Source of the DNA: Candidatus Eisenbergiella stercoravium
Lineage (GTDB): Bacteria; Bacillota; Clostridia; Lachnospirales; Lachnospiraceae
NCBI GenBank assembly: GCA_019113175.1
Contig: DXHY01000047.1
Coordinates: 1 to 64,000, forward strand
Direction: 5' to 3'
DNA length: 64,000 nt
Made by a program: the position numbers and the translations under genes. Positions 41,290 through 49,914 of the stretch are shown here, piece after piece (the stretch's first letter is position 1; each line of letters begins with the position of its first letter). The notes beneath the pieces were generated by a model. It had not been told where the DNA came from and ran no database searches. It worked only from the letters and a program-made list of their open reading frames with translations.

Positions 41290-41326
41290 CAAGAGTGGAC
41301 TTTTATACTATAATAAAAGTCCACTC
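41290..41326. repeat. Long AT-rich inverted repeat
   Basis: GAGTGGACTTTTAT pairs with ATAAAAGTCCACTC around a short AT loop. It sits between the stop of the GGGtGRT gene and the start of the small-gene operon, and may act as a terminator for the former; there is no strong T-run outside the stem. Confidence 0.6.
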
Positions 41327-43577: not shown

Positions 43578-44345
43578 GAATTCGCCGCCGCTGGCCTGTT
43601 CGAATTTCTGGAGAAGATCGGAAACCTTCAGTTTCTTCTTTTCCTCTCCTTCCACATCATAGATGATTTTTCCTTCATGCATCATGATCAGACGATTGCC
43701 GTGGGCAATGGCGTCCTTCATATTATGGGTAATCATCAGGGTGGTAAGATGCTCCTCATCCACGATGCGCTGCGTTACTTCCAGCACCTTGGCAGCGGTT
43801 TTGGGATCCAGCGCGGCAGTGTGCTCGTCCAGAAGAAGGAGCCTCGGCTTTTTCAGGGTGGCCATGAGCAGCGTCAGGGCCTGGCGCTGGCCGCCGGAAA
43901 GAAGCCCCACCTTGCTGGTCATGCGGAATTCCAGACCGAGGCCGAGAATTTTCAGCTTTTCCTGATACATCTGGCGTTCCTTCTGCGTGATGCCGGGCAC
44001 CAGCGTTCTCCTGCTTCCCCGCCGGGCCGCGAGAGCAAGGTTTTCCTCGATCTGCATATTTGCCGCCGTTCCGGTCATGGGATCCTGAAATACTCTGCCC
44101 AGATATTTGGCGCGCTTATATTCCGGAAGCTTTGTAACATCGATGTTGTCGATGGTAATTGTCCCCTCATCCACGGGAAAGACGCCGGCCACCGCATTCA
44201 GCATAGTGGATTTTCCTGCCCCGTTACCGCCGATGACGGTAACAAAATCTCCCTCCTTCAATTTCAGGTTGAGACCGTCCAGAGCTGTTTTTTCATTGAC
44301 GGTGCCCGCATTGAAGGTCTTACGGATTCCTTTCAGTTCAAGCAC
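43551..44345 (-). CDS. ABC transporter ATP-binding protein (TrpZ-like)
   Basis: 264 residues. Walker A GGNGAGKSTMLNAVAG, signature LLSGGQRQALTLLMA, Walker B LLLLDEHTAALDPKT, switch His in MITHNM. Partner of the permease and the PF04392-type binding protein. I prefer GTG 44345, which overlaps the permease stop by 8 nt and has AGGAGGTGA just upstream, over GTG 44354, which would lie on that ribosome binding site. Its 3' end has been tandemly duplicated. Confidence 0.88.
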   Translation of the reverse strand: MLELKGIRKTFNAGTVNEKTALDGLNLKLKEGDFVTVIGGNGAGKSTMLNAVAGVFPVDEGTITIDNIDVTKLPEYKRAKYLGRVFQDPMTGTAANMQIEENLALAARRGSRRTLVPGITQKERQMYQEKLKILGLGLEFRMTSKVGLLSGGQRQALTLLMATLKKPRLLLLDEHTAALDPKTAAKVLEVTQRIVDEEHLTTLMITHNMKDAIAHGNRLIMMHEGKIIYDVEGEEKKKLKVSDLLQKFEQASGGEFANDRMMLT

Positions 44346-45276
44346 GGGGCTCACCTCCTTTTTTCGCAGGCTTTACAGGCTTTGCAAAATACTTTTCCCG
44401 GATGTGGGGAATCGCCAGGAACACTGCGACCACCAGAGCGGAAAGCAGCTTCAGATCATTGGCGTTTAAGCCCAGCCAGAGCACAACCTGGAGCACCAGA
44501 TAATAAATGATGGCGCCGAAGGCGACCGTTGCAAGCGTAAAGGCAAAATTTCCGCGTACCCGTCGGAAGATCACCTCACCGATGATGACGGCTGCGAGAC
44601 CGATGACGATAGCGCCGCGTCCCATATTCACGTCGGCAAATCCCTGATACTGCGCCAGAAGTCCGCCGGAAAAAGCCACGATTCCATTGGAAACCATCAG
44701 GCCGAGCAGCTTACAGAAATCCGTATTGATGCCCTGTGCCCGGGACATGTTGGGATTGGAGCCCGTCGCACGGATGGAGCAGCCCAGCGCCGTACCAAAA
44801 AACCAGTAAAGTACGGCGATCAGGATGACAATAATGATCAGACAGATCAGAAGCGTATTTTCATAAAAGGGAACATCCTTTACATTTCTCAGGGAAATGA
44901 GCAGATCGTACTGGGATGCGCTGAGCGCCTGATTGGCGCGGTTTCCCATAATCCGCAGGTTGATGGAATACAGACCGAGCTGGGTCAGGATTCCCGCGAG
45001 AATCGCCGGGATTCCCATGGCGGTGTGGAAAATTCCTGTTGCAAGTCCCGCGAGTACGCCCGCCAGAAAGGCAGCCAGCAGCGATACCCATACAGAATGC
45101 CCGCTGAGCATCATCATTACACAGACCGCACCCCCGGTACACATGGAACCGTCCACCGACAGATCCGCCAGGTCCAGAATCTTATAGGTGATATAAACGC
45201 CAATCGCCATGATTCCCCAGACCAGGCCCTGTGCGCATGCACCTGGAAGCGCATTGAAAAGAGCCATAATATTCAC
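44338..45276 (-). CDS. ABC transporter permease (TrpY-like)
   Basis: 312 residues, about nine membrane helices, branched-chain amino acid permease-like (BPD_transp_2). Markers: YITYKILDLADLSVDGSMCT, GILTQLGLYSINLRIMG, LGCSIRATGSNPNMSRAQGI. This architecture with a PF04392 binding protein matches importers of aromatic amino acids (TrpXYZ type) in Gram-positives; the substrate here is not proven. Starts 175 bp after the binding-protein gene across a hairpin array. Confidence 0.88.
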   Translation of the reverse strand: MNIMALFNALPGACAQGLVWGIMAIGVYITYKILDLADLSVDGSMCTGGAVCVMMMLSGHSVWVSLLAAFLAGVLAGLATGIFHTAMGIPAILAGILTQLGLYSINLRIMGNRANQALSASQYDLLISLRNVKDVPFYENTLLICLIIIVILIAVLYWFFGTALGCSIRATGSNPNMSRAQGINTDFCKLLGLMVSNGIVAFSGGLLAQYQGFADVNMGRGAIVIGLAAVIIGEVIFRRVRGNFAFTLATVAFGAIIYYLVLQVVLWLGLNANDLKLLSALVVAVFLAIPHIREKYFAKPVKPAKKGGEPRA

Positions 45277-45291
45277 TTTCTACCTCCTGTC

Positions 45292-45407
45292 TGCCGCCAC
45301 AGGCGGCATAAGTTCATAAAAGAATGCCGGAGGCATTCTTTGGCACGAACTTCGTTCGTGCCGCTCCCACAAACAGGGATGCCCAGAAGATGCGGCATCC
45401 CCGTTTT
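45292..45407. repeat. Four-hairpin array between binding protein and permease genes
   Basis: TGCCGCC ACA GGCGGCA (45292-45308), AAAGAATGCC GGA GGCATTCTTT (45319-45341), GGCACGAAC TTC GTTCGTGCC (45342-45362), and AAACAGGGATGCC/GGCATCCCcGTTT (45371-45407). The first three have 3-base loops. Order and stems match the array at 47451-47542. The array could attenuate permease and ATPase expression relative to the binding protein. Confidence 0.85.
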
Positions 45408-45451
45408 GTACATGATATGTTTTCGTCCGTAACAAACGGACAGCCTGCGCT

Positions 45452-46546
45452 TTATTCAGCGGCAATCGGCTCGTAATCGTCCGGAACCGTGATTCCGAGC
45501 TCACTGCAGATCGCCTCGTTGTACATCTTGGTTACATTGGGAGCGGACTTGATCTCCATGGTGGAAATATCCGCGCCGTTTTCAAGGATGTCAACCGCCA
45601 TTTCACCAGCCGTATAGCCGATGTCATAGTAGCTGATGGAAAGCGTCGCTACGCCGCAGCCGGCGCAGATACCCTGCTCACCGGCAATAACCGGGATTCC
45701 TGCAGGCAGGCACACATTGTTGATAACTTCAGTATTTGCTGCTGCGGTATTGTCCGTAGGAACATAGATCACATCACAGGAGGATACCGCGTTGGTAACA
45801 ACAGAAGCCAGATCATTGGAATCCGCAAAGGTATAGTCCTCGCAGGTATATCCGTAGCCCTCCAGATAACCGCGGATGGTATCCGCCTGGTAAATGGAGT
45901 TGGGTTCCGCGGAGCAGTACAGAAGGCCAACGGTCTTCGCATCCGGGAACAGCTCGTTCAGCATCGCAGCCTGCTCTTCCAGGGGTGCCAGATCGGAGGT
46001 TCCTGAAATGTTCATTCCAGTGGTTCCCGTCCAGTCATCGATTCCAAGTGCAGTGGCATAATCGGTGATGGAGGTGCCGAGAATCGGGATTTCCGTAGTT
46101 CCCTGTGCAGCCGCCTGAAGAGCTGCCGTGGCATTTGCCAGAATCAGGTCCACATCTTCGGCTACAAACTGATTAATGATCGTGGCGCAGGTTGCAGAAT
46201 CGTTGGAAGCGTTCTGTTCGTCAAATACAACCCTGTCCTCGCCAAGCAGTTCCACCATGGCATCCTTGAAGCCCTGGGTCGCCTGGTCCAGCGCATCATG
46301 CTGCAGAAGCTGGCAGATGCCGATATGATAAACCGTATCGCTTCCGGCTGTATCCGCCGTACTCTCCGCTACACTCTCTGCCGCCGTGCTTTCTTCCGCA
46401 GCAGTTTCCGCTGCTGAAGTCTCCGAAGCTACCGCCTCTGAGGACTGCGTTTCCGAAGAAGCGGAGTTTCCTGTGCTGCTTCCGCAACCTGCCAGCATGG
46501 CAGCGGTCATGGTGAATGCTGTTACTACCGCCAATAACTTTTTCAT
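45452..46546 (-). CDS. ABC transporter substrate-binding protein (PF04392, TrpX-like)
   Basis: 364-residue lipoprotein. Signal peptide with lipobox LAGC (MKKLLAVVTAFTMTAAMLAG, then C), followed by an 50-residue linker rich in Ala, Ser and Glu, then the bilobed domain beginning YHIGICQLLQHDALDQAT. LILANATAALQAAAQGTTEI and VIYVPTDNTAAANTEVI are typical of the ABC_sub_bind family. First gene of the importer operon and preceded by a good promoter. High expression relative to the permease is expected for such a protein. Confidence 0.9.
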   Translation of the reverse strand: MKKLLAVVTAFTMTAAMLAGCGSSTGNSASSETQSSEAVASETSAAETAAEESTAAESVAESTADTAGSDTVYHIGICQLLQHDALDQATQGFKDAMVELLGEDRVVFDEQNASNDSATCATIINQFVAEDVDLILANATAALQAAAQGTTEIPILGTSITDYATALGIDDWTGTTGMNISGTSDLAPLEEQAAMLNELFPDAKTVGLLYCSAEPNSIYQADTIRGYLEGYGYTCEDYTFADSNDLASVVTNAVSSCDVIYVPTDNTAAANTEVINNVCLPAGIPVIAGEQGICAGCGVATLSISYYDIGYTAGEMAVDILENGADISTMEIKSAPNVTKMYNEAICSELGITVPDDYEPIAAE

Positions 46547-46616
46547 AACTGATTCCCCTTTTCTTTCCTCAATTTGATCGCTTCAATGCGTGAAAGCATT
46601 AATGCGTTCAACTGTT

Positions 46617-46645
46617 ACTATACACGAAATACCAACATTCGTCAA
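46617..46645 (-). promoter_or_regulatory. Promoter of the ABC importer operon
   Basis: Minus-strand TTGACG (46640-46645) and TATAGT (46617-46622) separated by 17 bp. Between the promoter and the start codon, repeated CGCATT words (ACGCATTAATGC, CACGCATTG at about 46585-46607) could be an operator; this is a guess. Confidence 0.75.
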
Positions 46646-46654
46646 CCAGAAAAT

Positions 46655-46689
46655 AAAGCCATGCTCCGAAGGCGGCGGAGCATGGCTTT
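46655..46689 (-). terminator. Terminator of the argH-asd-topB-LbH unit
   Basis: Perfect 13-bp stem AAAGCCATGCTCC/GGAGCATGGCTTT, 72 bp past the LbH gene stop, followed on the minus strand by ATTTTCT. Confidence 0.75.
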
Positions 46690-46760
46690 GCTGTCCACCG
46701 GCAGACCGGAAGACAGCAGCGGGCAGGGCCATCAGGCCTGCGTATTCAGTTCATCCTTTT

Positions 46761-47435
46761 TCAGTCCATTCTTCTTTTTGCGACGATCTCATCCGCATTT
46801 TTGAAAATGGAATTTTCCGGGACATAGCCTCTCACCATGGACAGGGGGTAGATATTGCTGCCGCGTCCAATCACCGTTCCGGGATTCAGAACGCTGTTGC
46901 ATCCCACCTCCACGTTGTCACCCAGCATGGCCCCGAACTTCTTCAGGCCGGTGTGGCATTCCTTTCCCTCGCAGCGGACCACCACCAGAGTCTTGTCGCT
47001 CTTGACGTTGGAGGTAATGGAGCCAGCTCCCATGTGCGCCTTATAGCCAAGGATGCTGTCGCCCACATAGTTGTAGTGAGGTACCTGAACCTTATTAAAG
47101 AGAATCACATTTTTCAGCTCTGTGGAATTGCCGACCACTGCTCCCTTTCCCACGATAGCGCTGCCCCGGACAAAGGCACAGTGGCGCACCTCGGCTTCCT
47201 CATCGATGATGAGCGGTCCGTTCAGACAGGCTGTGGGAGCCACCTTCGCGCTCTTCGCAATCCAGATGTTTTCTCCCCGCTTCTCATAACGATCCTCCGG
47301 AAGGCTGTTGCCCAGCTCGATGATAAAATCCTTAATCTTCGGAAGAATCTCCCAGGGATATTCCGCCCCTTCAAAAACAGCAGCCGCTATGGTTTCCCTC
47401 AAATCATAAAGCCTGTCAATCCTGCATGCCTTCAT
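46761..47435 (-). CDS. Left-handed beta-helix (GlmU/acyltransferase-like) protein
   Basis: 224 residues. After a helical N-terminus (MKACRIDRLYDLRETIAAAV) comes a hexapeptide-repeat beta helix (IWIAKSAKVAPTACLNGPLII, shown in part; then VRHCAFVRGSAIVGKGAVVG). It resembles the C-terminal half of UDP-GlcNAc pyrophosphorylase-like proteins but has no nucleotidyltransferase domain. It is probably an acyl- or sugar-phosphate-handling trimer; substrate unknown. ATG 47435 has AAGGAGG upstream; the longer frame through the hairpin array is not real. Confidence 0.82.
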   Translation of the reverse strand: MKACRIDRLYDLRETIAAAVFEGAEYPWEILPKIKDFIIELGNSLPEDRYEKRGENIWIAKSAKVAPTACLNGPLIIDEEAEVRHCAFVRGSAIVGKGAVVGNSTELKNVILFNKVQVPHYNYVGDSILGYKAHMGAGSITSNVKSDKTLVVVRCEGKECHTGLKKFGAMLGDNVEVGCNSVLNPGTVIGRGSNIYPLSMVRGYVPENSIFKNADEIVAKRRMD

Positions 47436-47450
47436 GTTTCCTCCTTTTTC

Positions 47451-47570
47451 TGCCGCCTTTGGGCGGCACCGCCCTTTGGCGGCATTACATTCTGTCAAAA
47501 ACAGCGTAAGCTGTTTTTTGGCACGAACCCGCGGTTCGTACCGGCCTCCTTTTTGCTGCCAGGGGCAGCA
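47451..47570. repeat. Five-hairpin array between topB and the LbH gene
   Basis: TGCCGCC/GGCGGCA (47451-47468), CCGCC/GGCGG (47469-47482), AAAAACAGC GTAA GCTGTTTTT (47497-47518), GGCACGAACC CGC GGTTCGTaCC (47520-47542, one mismatch) and TGCTGCC AGG GGCAGCA (47554-47570). The TGCCGCC and GGCACGAAC hairpins are the same as at 45.3 kb. Confidence 0.85.
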
Positions 47571-47577
47571 TTCCAAC

Positions 47578-49914
47578 TCATTTCTGCTTTCCGGACGCCG
47601 TCTCCGCCTTTTTCGCAGGGGCGGAGACAGCAGCCGGACGTTTTGCATAATATCTTGCGCTGTCCTCAAACTGTCTGTAGAGGACCTGCTGGTTATTCAG
47701 CTGTTTTACGATATTGGTTCTTCTCGTCACGAAATCCGTGAGCTTTTCCATATACTCATCGCTGGTAATCTCTCCCTGCGCCACCATGGCAAGCCCTTTC
47801 TCCCAGCTCGCCGTGAGGGCTGGATTTAAAAGAGGGCGGATGGAATCCGATACCACGTCGTAGATCATTTCCCCCATCTGGGTGGGCGTGATGATCTGGG
47901 TCTTTTTGTTCAGGGACAGATACTGAATGGCGACCAGCTTTTTGAGGATCTCCGCCCTGGTGGCTCTGGTTCCGATTCCGCTTCCCTTGATCTGCGCGCG
48001 CAGCTCCTCATCCTCGATGAACTGGCCCGCATTTTCCATGGTCAGGATCATGCTTCCGGAATTGTACCGTTTGGGCGGAGATGTCTCTCCTTCCCTGATG
48101 GAAAAGCCCTGACAGGAAAGCTTCATTCCTTTTTTCAGCTTCTGCAGGCCGGCGAGAAAGGCGGCGTCATATTTTTCTTCCGTCTGGCCTCCTTCCTCCT
48201 TCTGTGCATCCGCACCGGAGGCGCTTTCCGGCTCCGCCCCGCCGTTCTGATCCATCCCGCCGCTCTGGTCCGCTCCGTCCCGGCCTGTGCGGTTCGCGGC
48301 GGCTCCTTTGTCCTGGCGGCGCGCCACCTTCAGGTAGCCCTCCTTCACCAGCACGCGAAAGCTTGAGAAAAACCGCTCCTTTTTCATGATGCATACCAGA
48401 GAAATCTTCTGATAAACGGCCGGCGGATAAAAAATACTCAGAAACCGCCTGACGATCAGTTCATACACTCTGGCCGACGCGGGCGCAAGGGAACGGAGCG
48501 CTCCAAGCCCCTGACCGGTGGGAATGATCGCGTAATGATCCGTGATCAGCTTATCGTTCACATATCTGGTTTTCGCGATTCCTTTATAAGTGCCGGATTC
48601 CAGCACCTGAGACGCGAATGCGGCCAGCGGCTGATAGCTTTTAAGCCCGCCGATGTTCCTTGCGATTTCCTTCGCGACAGCGGTGGAAAGCACACGGGCG
48701 TCCGTACGGGGGTAAGTGGTCAGCTTCTTTTCATAAAGTTCCTGGGCGATCCGCAGGGTCTCATCCGGGCTGAGCTTGAACAGACGGGAGCAGTCGTTCT
48801 GAAGCTCCGCCAGGTTGTATAAAAGAGGCGGGTACTTCTGCTCCTTCTTCCGCTCGATCTTTTCGATCACGGGCACTTCTTCCTCTGTTTTCAGAAAATC
48901 GATCAGCGCCTCGGCGCTCTCTTTTTTCAGAAAACCGTTTTCCTTGTAAAGCAGGGGTGACTGATACCAGGCGGAACCCTCCACGGCCCTCCACTCGCCC
49001 TCGAAGCCTTTCTGCGGCACGGATGCCTCCCGTGCCGCGGACGCCTCCCGTGCCGCAGATGTTTCTCGCACCGCGGACGTCTCCCGTGCTTCAGAGGTTT
49101 CTCGCACTGCGGATGCCTCCCATGCAGCGGGTGTTCCCTGCGGTGCGGAAATTTCGGCCATACCGTTCTCTCCGTTTCCTGCGGCCATTCCTTCCGGAAG
49201 CAGGGAAGCCGTCACCCGGTAAAAGGGAGTTTTTACGAACTGGCGTATCTCCCGTTCCCGGTTCACCACCATACCCAGCACACAGGTCATGACCCGGCCC
49301 ACGGAGATGACGGCCCGGTCCAGCTTCAGGTAGTTTTTCACCGGCGTGCCGTATTTCAGCGTGAGGACGCGGGAGAAGTTGATTCCCATCAGGTAATCCT
49401 CCTTCGCCCGCAGATAGGCCGCGTCGCTCAAATGGTCATAGGCGGAAAGGTCTTTCGCCTCCCGGATGCCGCGCAGAATCTCCTCTTCCGTCTGGGAATC
49501 GATCCACACCCTGCGCCGGGTCTTGCCATGCACGCCCGCCTGTTTTTCCACCAGCCGGTAAATATACTCCCCCTCCCTTCCGGAGTCCGTGCACACATAG
49601 ATGGTGGTCACATCCTCCCGGTTCAGCAGGGAGCTGACAATATCGAACTGCTTCTGTACGCCAGGGATCACTTCGTATTTGTATTCCTCCGGCAGAAAGG
49701 GAAGGGTCTGAAGGCTCCAGCGCTTCAGCGCCGGATCATAGGCCTCCGGGTAGCTCATGGTCACCAGATGGCCAACGCACCAGGTCACCACAGCCTCCTC
49801 CGATTCCATATATCCGTCCCGGTTTGCCATACGGTATTTCAGCGCTTTGGCAAATTCCCGGGCCACGCTGGGCTTTTCTGCGATAAACAGATCCTTTCCT
49901 TTATCCTGACTCAA
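47578..49914 (-). CDS. topB: DNA topoisomerase III (type IA)
   Basis: 778 residues. TOPRIM domain with the start KDLFIAEKPSVAREFAKAL, then CTDSGREGEYIYRLVE; the active-site Tyr lies in LTTYPRTDARVLS. The enzyme relaxes and decatenates DNA through single-strand passage. Two low-complexity inserts are odd: six hexapeptide repeats (RETSAV-like, encoded by 49022-49129) and a Gly/Gln/Asp-rich stretch near RTGRDGADQSGGMDQNGG. The start is TTG 49914 with AGAGGAAG upstream. It lies 16 bp after asd. Confidence 0.93.
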   Translation of the reverse strand: MSQDKGKDLFIAEKPSVAREFAKALKYRMANRDGYMESEEAVVTWCVGHLVTMSYPEAYDPALKRWSLQTLPFLPEEYKYEVIPGVQKQFDIVSSLLNREDVTTIYVCTDSGREGEYIYRLVEKQAGVHGKTRRRVWIDSQTEEEILRGIREAKDLSAYDHLSDAAYLRAKEDYLMGINFSRVLTLKYGTPVKNYLKLDRAVISVGRVMTCVLGMVVNREREIRQFVKTPFYRVTASLLPEGMAAGNGENGMAEISAPQGTPAAWEASAVRETSEARETSAVRETSAAREASAAREASVPQKGFEGEWRAVEGSAWYQSPLLYKENGFLKKESAEALIDFLKTEEEVPVIEKIERKKEQKYPPLLYNLAELQNDCSRLFKLSPDETLRIAQELYEKKLTTYPRTDARVLSTAVAKEIARNIGGLKSYQPLAAFASQVLESGTYKGIAKTRYVNDKLITDHYAIIPTGQGLGALRSLAPASARVYELIVRRFLSIFYPPAVYQKISLVCIMKKERFFSSFRVLVKEGYLKVARRQDKGAAANRTGRDGADQSGGMDQNGGAEPESASGADAQKEEGGQTEEKYDAAFLAGLQKLKKGMKLSCQGFSIREGETSPPKRYNSGSMILTMENAGQFIEDEELRAQIKGSGIGTRATRAEILKKLVAIQYLSLNKKTQIITPTQMGEMIYDVVSDSIRPLLNPALTASWEKGLAMVAQGEITSDEYMEKLTDFVTRRTNIVKQLNNQQVLYRQFEDSARYYAKRPAAVSAPAKKAETASGKQK
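49022..49129. repeat. Six 18-bp tandem repeats inside topB
   Basis: Six consecutive 18-bp units of the form GAtGcCTCCCGTGCcGCg encode the hexapeptide series WEASAV, RETSEA, RETSAV, RETSAA, REASAA, REASVP. Length is a multiple of three, so copy-number change keeps the frame. Confidence 0.9.

Follow-up and report, generated by a model that had tools for sequence, protein, structure and literature searches.

Two arrays of short-loop hairpins lie in the window, which is the whole 64,000-nucleotide stretch of DNA analyzed here (contig DXHY01000047.1, positions 1 to 64,000, from Candidatus Eisenbergiella stercoravium). The original prediction had placed the arrays at 45292-45362 and 47451-47542, and the hairpins were found at those coordinates when they were re-read. 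Because the genes on either side of each array all run on the minus strand, the functional order of the hairpins, here called A, B, and C, is the reverse of their plus-strand order. Read in the gene direction, each copy consists of hairpin A, hairpin B, an AT-rich linker (10 to 13 nt in the window copies), a GC-rich hairpin C, and a purine tail containing AGGAGG, followed by a start codon. The end of each unit is therefore the Shine-Dalgarno (SD) sequence of the next gene, with the start codon directly after it, a feature absent from the original prediction. The components of the two arrays and the adjacent genes, all on the minus strand, are as follows.

45452-46546 (minus strand): gene upstream of copy 1, ABC transporter substrate-binding protein (PF04392)
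45342-45362 (minus strand): hairpin A of copy 1, GGCACGAAC-GAA-GTTCGTGCC; plus-strand reading GGCACGAAC-ttc-GTTCGTGCC
45319-45341 (minus strand): hairpin B of copy 1, AAAGAATGCC-TCC-GGCATTCTTT; plus-strand reading AAAGAATGCC-gga-GGCATTCTTT
45309-45318 (minus strand): AT-rich linker of copy 1
45292-45308 (minus strand): hairpin C of copy 1, TGCCGCC-TGT-GGCGGCA; plus-strand reading TGCCGCC-aca-GGCGGCA
45283-45288 (minus strand): SD of copy 1 (AGGAGG), ahead of the permease start codon, GTG (45276-45274)
44338-45276 (minus strand): gene downstream of copy 1, ABC transporter permease (PF02653)
47578-49914 (minus strand): gene upstream of copy 2, DNA topoisomerase (PF01131, Toprim), topB-like by our reading
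47554-47570 (minus strand): diverged C-type hairpin that opens array 2, TGCTGCC-CCT-GGCAGCA
47545-47550 (minus strand): inner SD-like AGGAGG immediately before hairpin A of copy 2, followed by that hairpin and no gene
47520-47542 (minus strand): hairpin A of copy 2, GGTACGAACC-GCG-GGTTCGTGCC, with one U-G wobble in the mRNA; plus-strand reading GGCACGAACC-cgc-GGTTCGTACC
47497-47518 (minus strand): hairpin B of copy 2, AAAAACAGC-TTAC-GCTGTTTTT; plus-strand reading AAAAACAGC-gtaa-GCTGTTTTT
47484-47496 (minus strand): linker of copy 2
47451-47483 (minus strand): doubled hairpin C of copy 2 (47469-47483 and 47451-47468, the latter on the plus strand TGCCGCC-tttg-GGCGGCA)
47440-47445 (minus strand): SD AGGAGG of copy 2, followed by ATG (47435-47433)
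46761-47435 (minus strand): gene downstream of copy 2, hexapeptide-repeat (LbH) protein

The two arrays had been predicted to carry the same series of hairpins with conserved stems. The order is indeed shared, but array 2 has a doubled hairpin C and the additional C-type hairpin upstream, and its last right arm has one A in place of G, which gives a U-G wobble on the mRNA strand.

The copies reach far beyond the window. In the 4.1-Mb genome, 24 sites carry the hairpin A palindrome with a 3- to 5-nt loop, compared with 0 for a reversed-pattern control; 23 of them belong to complete A-B-C units with linker and SD, and the remaining one, in locus L012, is an orphan. These figures rule out chance. 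A covariance model built from the 23 units (R1) matched the window at 45282-45362 and 47441-47542, both on the minus strand, and yielded 137 matches in the genome at an E value of ≤0.01, a count that includes weak antisense readings of the same arrays (e.g., C6:2645-2706, minus strand). The proposal of a repeat family was thus borne out, with copies dispersed across the genome. Units were placed on genes by an R1 search of 100 fetched sources, excluding L170 (which overlaps L012) and L185 to L188 (weak matches). From its 190 matches, the best 150 were aligned and 18 overlapping rows were removed, leaving 132 units, each about 80 to 95 bp long, in 105 arrays (85 single, 13 double, and 7 triple).

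Almost every array ends at a gene start. With one array cut off by the end of its stretch, 104 were assessable, and 102 of these end at the start codon of an open reading frame (ORF) of at least 60 amino acids, mostly 2 to 9 nt past the end of the model; the 102 include one weak GTG call (L151). In the two failing arrays (L042 and L181), further hairpin-like sequence comes next. Random same-strand positions in the same stretches were followed by ATG and an ORF of at least 60 amino acids in 874/5200 cases. Upstream of the first hairpin A, an SD-like string was found in 52/104 arrays, compared with 272/2080 random 14-mers, and a GC-rich hairpin, loosely defined and not always of type C, in 46/104.

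The distance from an array to the next upstream same-strand ORF ranged from overlap up to 978 nt. Forty-five of the 104 arrays lie within 60 nt of that ORF, and 6 of these have a promoter-like pair in the preceding 110 nt; for 52 others, either the distance exceeds 100 nt or the stretch contains no such ORF, and a promoter-like pair precedes 19 of them. The spread of distances and the promoter-like pairs indicate that the units occur inside operons and, probably, also in leaders behind promoters. The proposed placement between co-oriented genes in operons therefore describes both window pairs but is only partly general. Two candidate elements within the unit were rejected. A promoter in the linker would have to rely on -10-like strings that are present in only 23/108 linkers, and a small reading frame beginning at an ATG in hairpin C, found in 62/102 arrays, is spread over the three possible frames with respect to the gene (25, 22, and 15), so no upstream frame is conserved.

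The stems are constrained and the loops are not. In a comparison of orthologous loci (28 species pairs at 11 loci, the pairs sharing species), differences amounted to 10/504 in the stem of A and 12/336 in that of C, 43/219 in the linker, 65/417 in the tail, and 56/117 and 34/92 in the loops of A and C, respectively. Third codon positions with an identical amino acid differed in 554/2570 cases. Divergence at orthologous genes is thus 2 to 4% in stems, a low estimate because the pattern accepts only near-standard stems, compared with 22% at third codon positions and 37 to 48% in loops, in agreement with the original prediction of conserved stems and variable loops. An alignment of 50 diverse units (A5, including two antisense rows), which is the basis of a second covariance model (R2), had 95.8% of its cells paired, and 22 of its 26 pairs were changed on both sides. 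Doubly changed cells numbered 323, compared with a mean of 88.8 in shuffles and 28 to 50 in slid controls; the stems do co-vary, although the alignment was fitted to the structure and so leans in favor of covariation, and a DNA palindrome would co-vary likewise.

The loops carry a further signal. Among 40 pairs of A loops, 4 were identical and 5, at two loci, were exact inversions of each other, where 0.8 inversions would be expected by re-pairing; the 53 pairs of C loops gave 12 identities and 3 inversions, again at two loci, with 0.6 expected. Inversion of loops at the same locus suggests that the hairpins form in DNA. At L006, loops of different hairpins seemed by eye to pair with one another, but the other loci read gave no such pairing, and this candidate was dropped.

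R1 matched all 13 genomes of the genus, that of the window included, at an E value of ≤0.01, and none of 24 genomes from other genera of the family or of 24 further genomes of the order. The genome_contigs collection, from which records very near the window may be missing, gave 50 stretches in a pattern scan: 40 titled Eisenbergiella, 9 from a "Lachnospiraceae" bin that coincides with genome G004 of the same genus, and 1 titled Mediterraneibacter. This last record (L092, CALWBC010000397.1), titled uncultured Mediterraneibacter, carries a tandem array of the Eisenbergiella type before a galE-like gene that is 98% identical to the one in the window genome, and is perhaps a mislabeled or contaminated bin. 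A perfect hairpin C followed by the SD (C-SD) was counted 123 times in the window genome, 74 times in G002, 38 times in G011, 31 to 113 times in seven other relatives, once in G003, and not at all in G001 and G012, with at most 2 control hits per genome. A narrower pattern, GCCGCC..GGCGGCRGAATGNRAG, matched 1/391 class-level Clostridia genomes and 0 times in the window genome itself, so it is too narrow to judge the distribution.

The architecture recurs in other genera of the Lachnospiraceae with different A and B stems. The C-SD pattern was present in 15/297 non-genus genomes of the family, with 1 or 2 hits each (18 hits, compared with 8 for the reversed control). R2, applied to 200 family genomes with 22 candidates scored per genome, matched four at an E value of ≤1e-4, two of them outside the genus. 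A closer R2 analysis covered 12 chosen non-genus genomes (the two with R2 hits, nine of the 15 with C-SD hits, and one arbitrary choice), and six matched at an E value of ≤0.1, including three of the nine C-SD genomes (G288, G308, and G196). The numbers of matches at E values of ≤0.1 and ≤0.01 were 29 and 11 in G208, 14 and 7 in G288, 12 and 11 in G078, 5 and 1 in G308, 2 and 0 in G196, and 1 and 1 in G036. When 24 of these places were read, the architecture was seen ahead of an ATG, in full or as its B-linker-C part, in G208, G288, G078, and G036, with the units of G288 in tandem, 93 to 100 bp apart; G196 has a solo C-SD before an ATG, and G308 is mixed, some of its matches being unconvincing. 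Stems also vary within the genus: many of 24 fetched R1 matches from G001, G003, G012, G002, and G011 keep the order and the place before an ATG but have other A and B stems (e.g., TGGGACAC/GTGTCCCA, GGAGAAGC/GCTTCTCC, and GCGGCC/GGCCGC), and sometimes a different C too. The exceptions are L216, with one distal hairpin only, and L214 in G001, which is not clearly of this kind.

Copies in genome G208 point to recent spread. Between the foot of hairpin A and the start codon, a length of 107 nt that takes in the loops and the spacer, L247 and L277 each differ from L255 by one base; the flanks of the three copies are unrelated, and the copies precede unrelated genes. Three further copies in the same genome are 93 to 96% alike, and about nine longer matches are 72 to 79% alike. 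The gene behind L277, which we take to be prfA-like, was found in five of the six genomes of that genus, G208 included, and the other four have no unit there. Filled and empty sites also alternate among relatives of the window genome. Before the hexapeptide gene, L199 has a unit, and L200 and L201 have none but a single SD. At the permease site, L202 carries a full unit and L203 a solo C-SD; in L199 the unit there is partly deleted, lacking hairpin A and half of B, and L200, L201, and L204 to L206 have no unit. Other loci likewise show empty, solo C-SD, and full states, and the number of units differs between species. At the permease site of G002 (L207), a hairpin, a TTGATTTGTAT linker, a GC-rich hairpin, and GGGAG resemble by eye a shortened unit with unrelated stems; R2 did not match it at an E value of ≤1e-4. 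Carriage by phages or plasmids was not detected in the collections searched: two patterns had 0 matches in viral_contigs, and one unit used as a blastn query had no match in plasmid and phage collections at an E value of ≤1e-3.

The genes behind the units are diverse. Of the 102 downstream proteins, 22 were searched with at most their first 230 amino acids, and many scores are under whole-protein cutoffs because the queries were that short. The best matches were araA, topA, pheS, trpD, fabD, a YfcC-like antiporter, part of a glutamate synthase, asnB, rpmD, argJ, sigE, galE, thyA, tyrS, purA, ybaB, a MATE transporter, nrdR, trmD, and a glycosyl transferase; the protein of L019 had no match, and the match of L152 fell below its cutoff. 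No common pathway or regulon emerged among the 22. What appears to be one and the same ribosomal-protein gene, rpmD (L30), directly follows a unit both in the window genome (L182, by family search) and in G011 (L208, by our reading), with different stems.

The suggestion that no known family fits agrees with the Rfam search, which returned 0 matches at the gathering threshold over the whole window and 0 up to an E value of 1 in 45200-47700. A proposed association with a TnpA-REP-type transposase did not hold up, as PF01797 had 0 matches in the window genome, which is 95% complete. Within the genus, PF01797 matched 6/13 genomes; it was absent from G004 to G007, which have 48 to 72 R1 matches, and present twice each in G008 to G010, which have 36 to 65. 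Genome G012, which has the most Y1 transposases (8), has the fewest R1 matches in the genus (1), the opposite of the REP/RAYT pattern.

REP/BIME elements are single palindromic units present in many copies, with genome-specific stems and a conserved tetranucleotide at the foot of the palindrome. The present repeat resembles REP/BIME with RAYT (TnpA-REP), as generally described, in its many palindromic copies and genome-specific stems, but differs in having three distinct hairpins in a fixed order with a linker and an SD tail instead of a single palindrome, in a carrier genome without Y1_Tnp, and in Y1 counts that do not parallel copy number. The MIRUs of mycobacteria are short, tandem-prone repeats at operon gene boundaries near start codons, and in that general description they share tandem arrangement and placement with the repeat but are not known to be built of three short-loop hairpins. 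ERIC, RUP, Correia, and other MITE-like repeats are similarly small, dispersed, and highly base paired. MITEs, however, have terminal inverted repeats and target-site duplications (PMC3049150), whereas the aligned units start with the self-contained hairpin A, end in a purine tail, and have no terminal inverted repeats. BOX of Streptococcus pneumoniae (boxA-boxB(n)-boxC), of which 86 are counted in Table 1 of PMC3049150, is likewise modular, hairpin forming, and dispersed, and its inner modules stand in tandem, in numbers that differ from strain to strain. Compared by description only, it differs in that the present repeat ends in an SD before start codons, which is not stated of BOX in the sections of PMC3049150 consulted. 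The repeat therefore belongs to the small interspersed kind, is a member of no named family compared, and is apparently undescribed; no description was found in the titles and abstract openings of the open-licence PMC papers among the matches listed.

The repeat is a defined and dispersed unit with constrained stems, which lies before start codons and differs between species. We consider the chances about even that it is a structure-constrained leader cassette carrying its own SD. Such a unit would move as a DNA copy to new sites at the 5′ edge of genes; with the SD that it supplies, the gene would stay translatable and the unit would survive at the start codon. Recombination or slippage between the C-SD repeats might produce the tandem arrays and the solo C-SD forms. 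Local folding of the hairpins in the mRNA would help to prevent upstream sequence from pairing with the purine SD tail and may also protect RNA ends, and selection at each locus would keep this partly insulated ribosome-binding site. More tentatively, and with less than even confidence, the repeat may be a self-spreading translation-initiation cassette that supplies a structured ribosome-binding site, now forms the start region of about 100 genes, housekeeping genes included, combines genus-specific A and B stems with a shared architecture and C-SD core, and is moved by a yet-unrecognized enzyme. Small bacterial interspersed repeats are often read as parasites in harmless spots, for example, between convergent genes; the arrays examined here occupy a highly sensitive spot, directly before the start codon and with the SD included. 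If the cassette reading is true, the repeat would be a natural source of modular ribosome-binding sites and a way for a repeat to reset the translation of many genes. It would also offer a test bed for structure kept under sequence rewriting and help to account for 5′ leader differences among closely related gut bacteria.

Folding predictions agree with modest help to the SD from the upstream hairpins. When five leaders were folded and compared with 200 shuffles each, four were more stable than every shuffle and L255 was beaten by one (z scores of -3.0 to -6.5). The lowest-energy folds of window copy 2, L017, and L241 leave the SD unpaired, and those of the latter two pair the start-codon region. 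In 97 of the 102 leaders (the other five having no room or no recognizable SD string), the predicted probability that the SD is unpaired averaged 0.559, compared with 0.464 when the upstream part was shuffled, and was higher in 66/97 (Wilcoxon P = 0.0002), the shuffle preserving base composition only.

That limit of the shuffle is one of several points that weigh against a cassette selected for SD accessibility. In window copy 1 and L255, the SD is paired in the lowest-energy fold, in the former at the expense of hairpin C; the predicted unpaired probability of the SD is below 0.5 in 41/97 leaders; and the start codon shows no gain in predicted accessibility (0.526, compared with 0.498 shuffled). 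Stem mismatches comprised 18 G-U and 14 A-C in 3672 pairs, compared with 31 and 19 in 1161 pairs of a terminator-like control; in this test of little power, they show no RNA-strand bias and leave selection at the RNA level unproven. Copies near promoters resemble those inside operons, and thus no single operon role covers all copies. With regard to mobility, no mobilizing enzyme was found, PF01797 being the family searched, and no constant target-site duplication was detected. The SD-like string before the first A is absent from as many arrays (52) as have it and is equally explained by tandem units, and the empty sites are too diverged to give an exact junction.

Alternatively, the repeat could be purely selfish, of the REP or MITE kind, tolerated only beside start codons by virtue of its own SD, with stems kept for the mobilizing machinery or restored by replication through hairpins. 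The genome-specific subfamilies, each with its own stem consensus, the recent near-identical copies in G208, and the lack of mRNA-strand asymmetry in mismatches speak for this reading, as do the hypervariable loops with exact inversions at the same locus (two loci for A, two for C), which suggest hairpins in DNA. Old copies at fixed loci, however, have stems far more conserved than third codon positions, which a dead selfish copy would not, and the carrier has no Y1 transposase. Because 102/104 arrays lie directly before an ORF, at most two can lie between convergent genes, where BOX elements are over-represented (16/86 in Table 1 of PMC3049150). We therefore regard this explanation as doubtful.

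It is less probable still, and in our view unlikely, that the units are cis-regulatory RNAs whose A and B stems are bound by a trans-acting protein or small RNA controlling the translation of many genes, the factor and the stems being genus specific. Strong stem conservation, with a stem sequence common to many genes within a genome and different between genera, is consistent with such a factor, but structure-only selection with common descent accounts for the same data, the 22 sampled downstream proteins form no pathway, and Rfam has no match.

A switch based on alternative pairing of the purine SD tail with the pyrimidine-rich 3′ arm of B appears highly improbable. Predicted duplexes between this arm and the tail of the same unit averaged -7.6 kcal/mol in type I units and -6.7 kcal/mol in type II units, stronger than with tails of other clades (-6.6 and -6.3, respectively), and reached -10.2 compared with -8.2 kcal/mol in four units of the G001/G003/G012 group. 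The 5′ arms are purine rich (A in 8/8 groups, B in 6/8), and the fold of L255 pairs the linker with the SD. The own tail is nevertheless no better than tails from other loci of the same group (-7.8 and -6.9 kcal/mol for types I and II) and is weaker than other-clade tails in G002, G011, G288, G208, and G078; the duplex test is weak, since 13/32 non-own loci were unparsed and some parses (e.g., L250 and L254) are doubtful. Intrinsic terminators or attenuators between genes can be given hardly any weight: the hairpins are GC rich and intergenic and TTTT lies near the 3′ end of B in 12/84 units, but in none of the 84 units with three parsed hairpins do the 8 nt behind a hairpin contain 6 or more T, no element hairpin is among the five terminator-like sites in 45000-48000, and the units precede rpmD and other housekeeping genes.

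Several minor features of the surrounding sequence were also noted. A terminator-like stretch, AAGCGG...CCGCTTTTTG, lies between the substrate-binding and permease genes in L199 to L206 and, in the window genome (45363-45450), is truncated where hairpin A starts. Positions 46655-46689, behind the hexapeptide gene, hold a terminator-like site on the minus strand, in which ATTTTCTGG follows a perfect 14-bp hairpin. Another perfect 14-bp hairpin, with a 6-nt loop and arms GAGTGGACTTTTAT/ATAAAAGTCCACTC, is located at 41293-41326, and its stems are unlike those of the repeat family. Finally, the topoisomerase ORF (47578-49914, minus strand) contains a repetitive, low-complexity REASAAREASAVRETS-like stretch at about 48980-49110.

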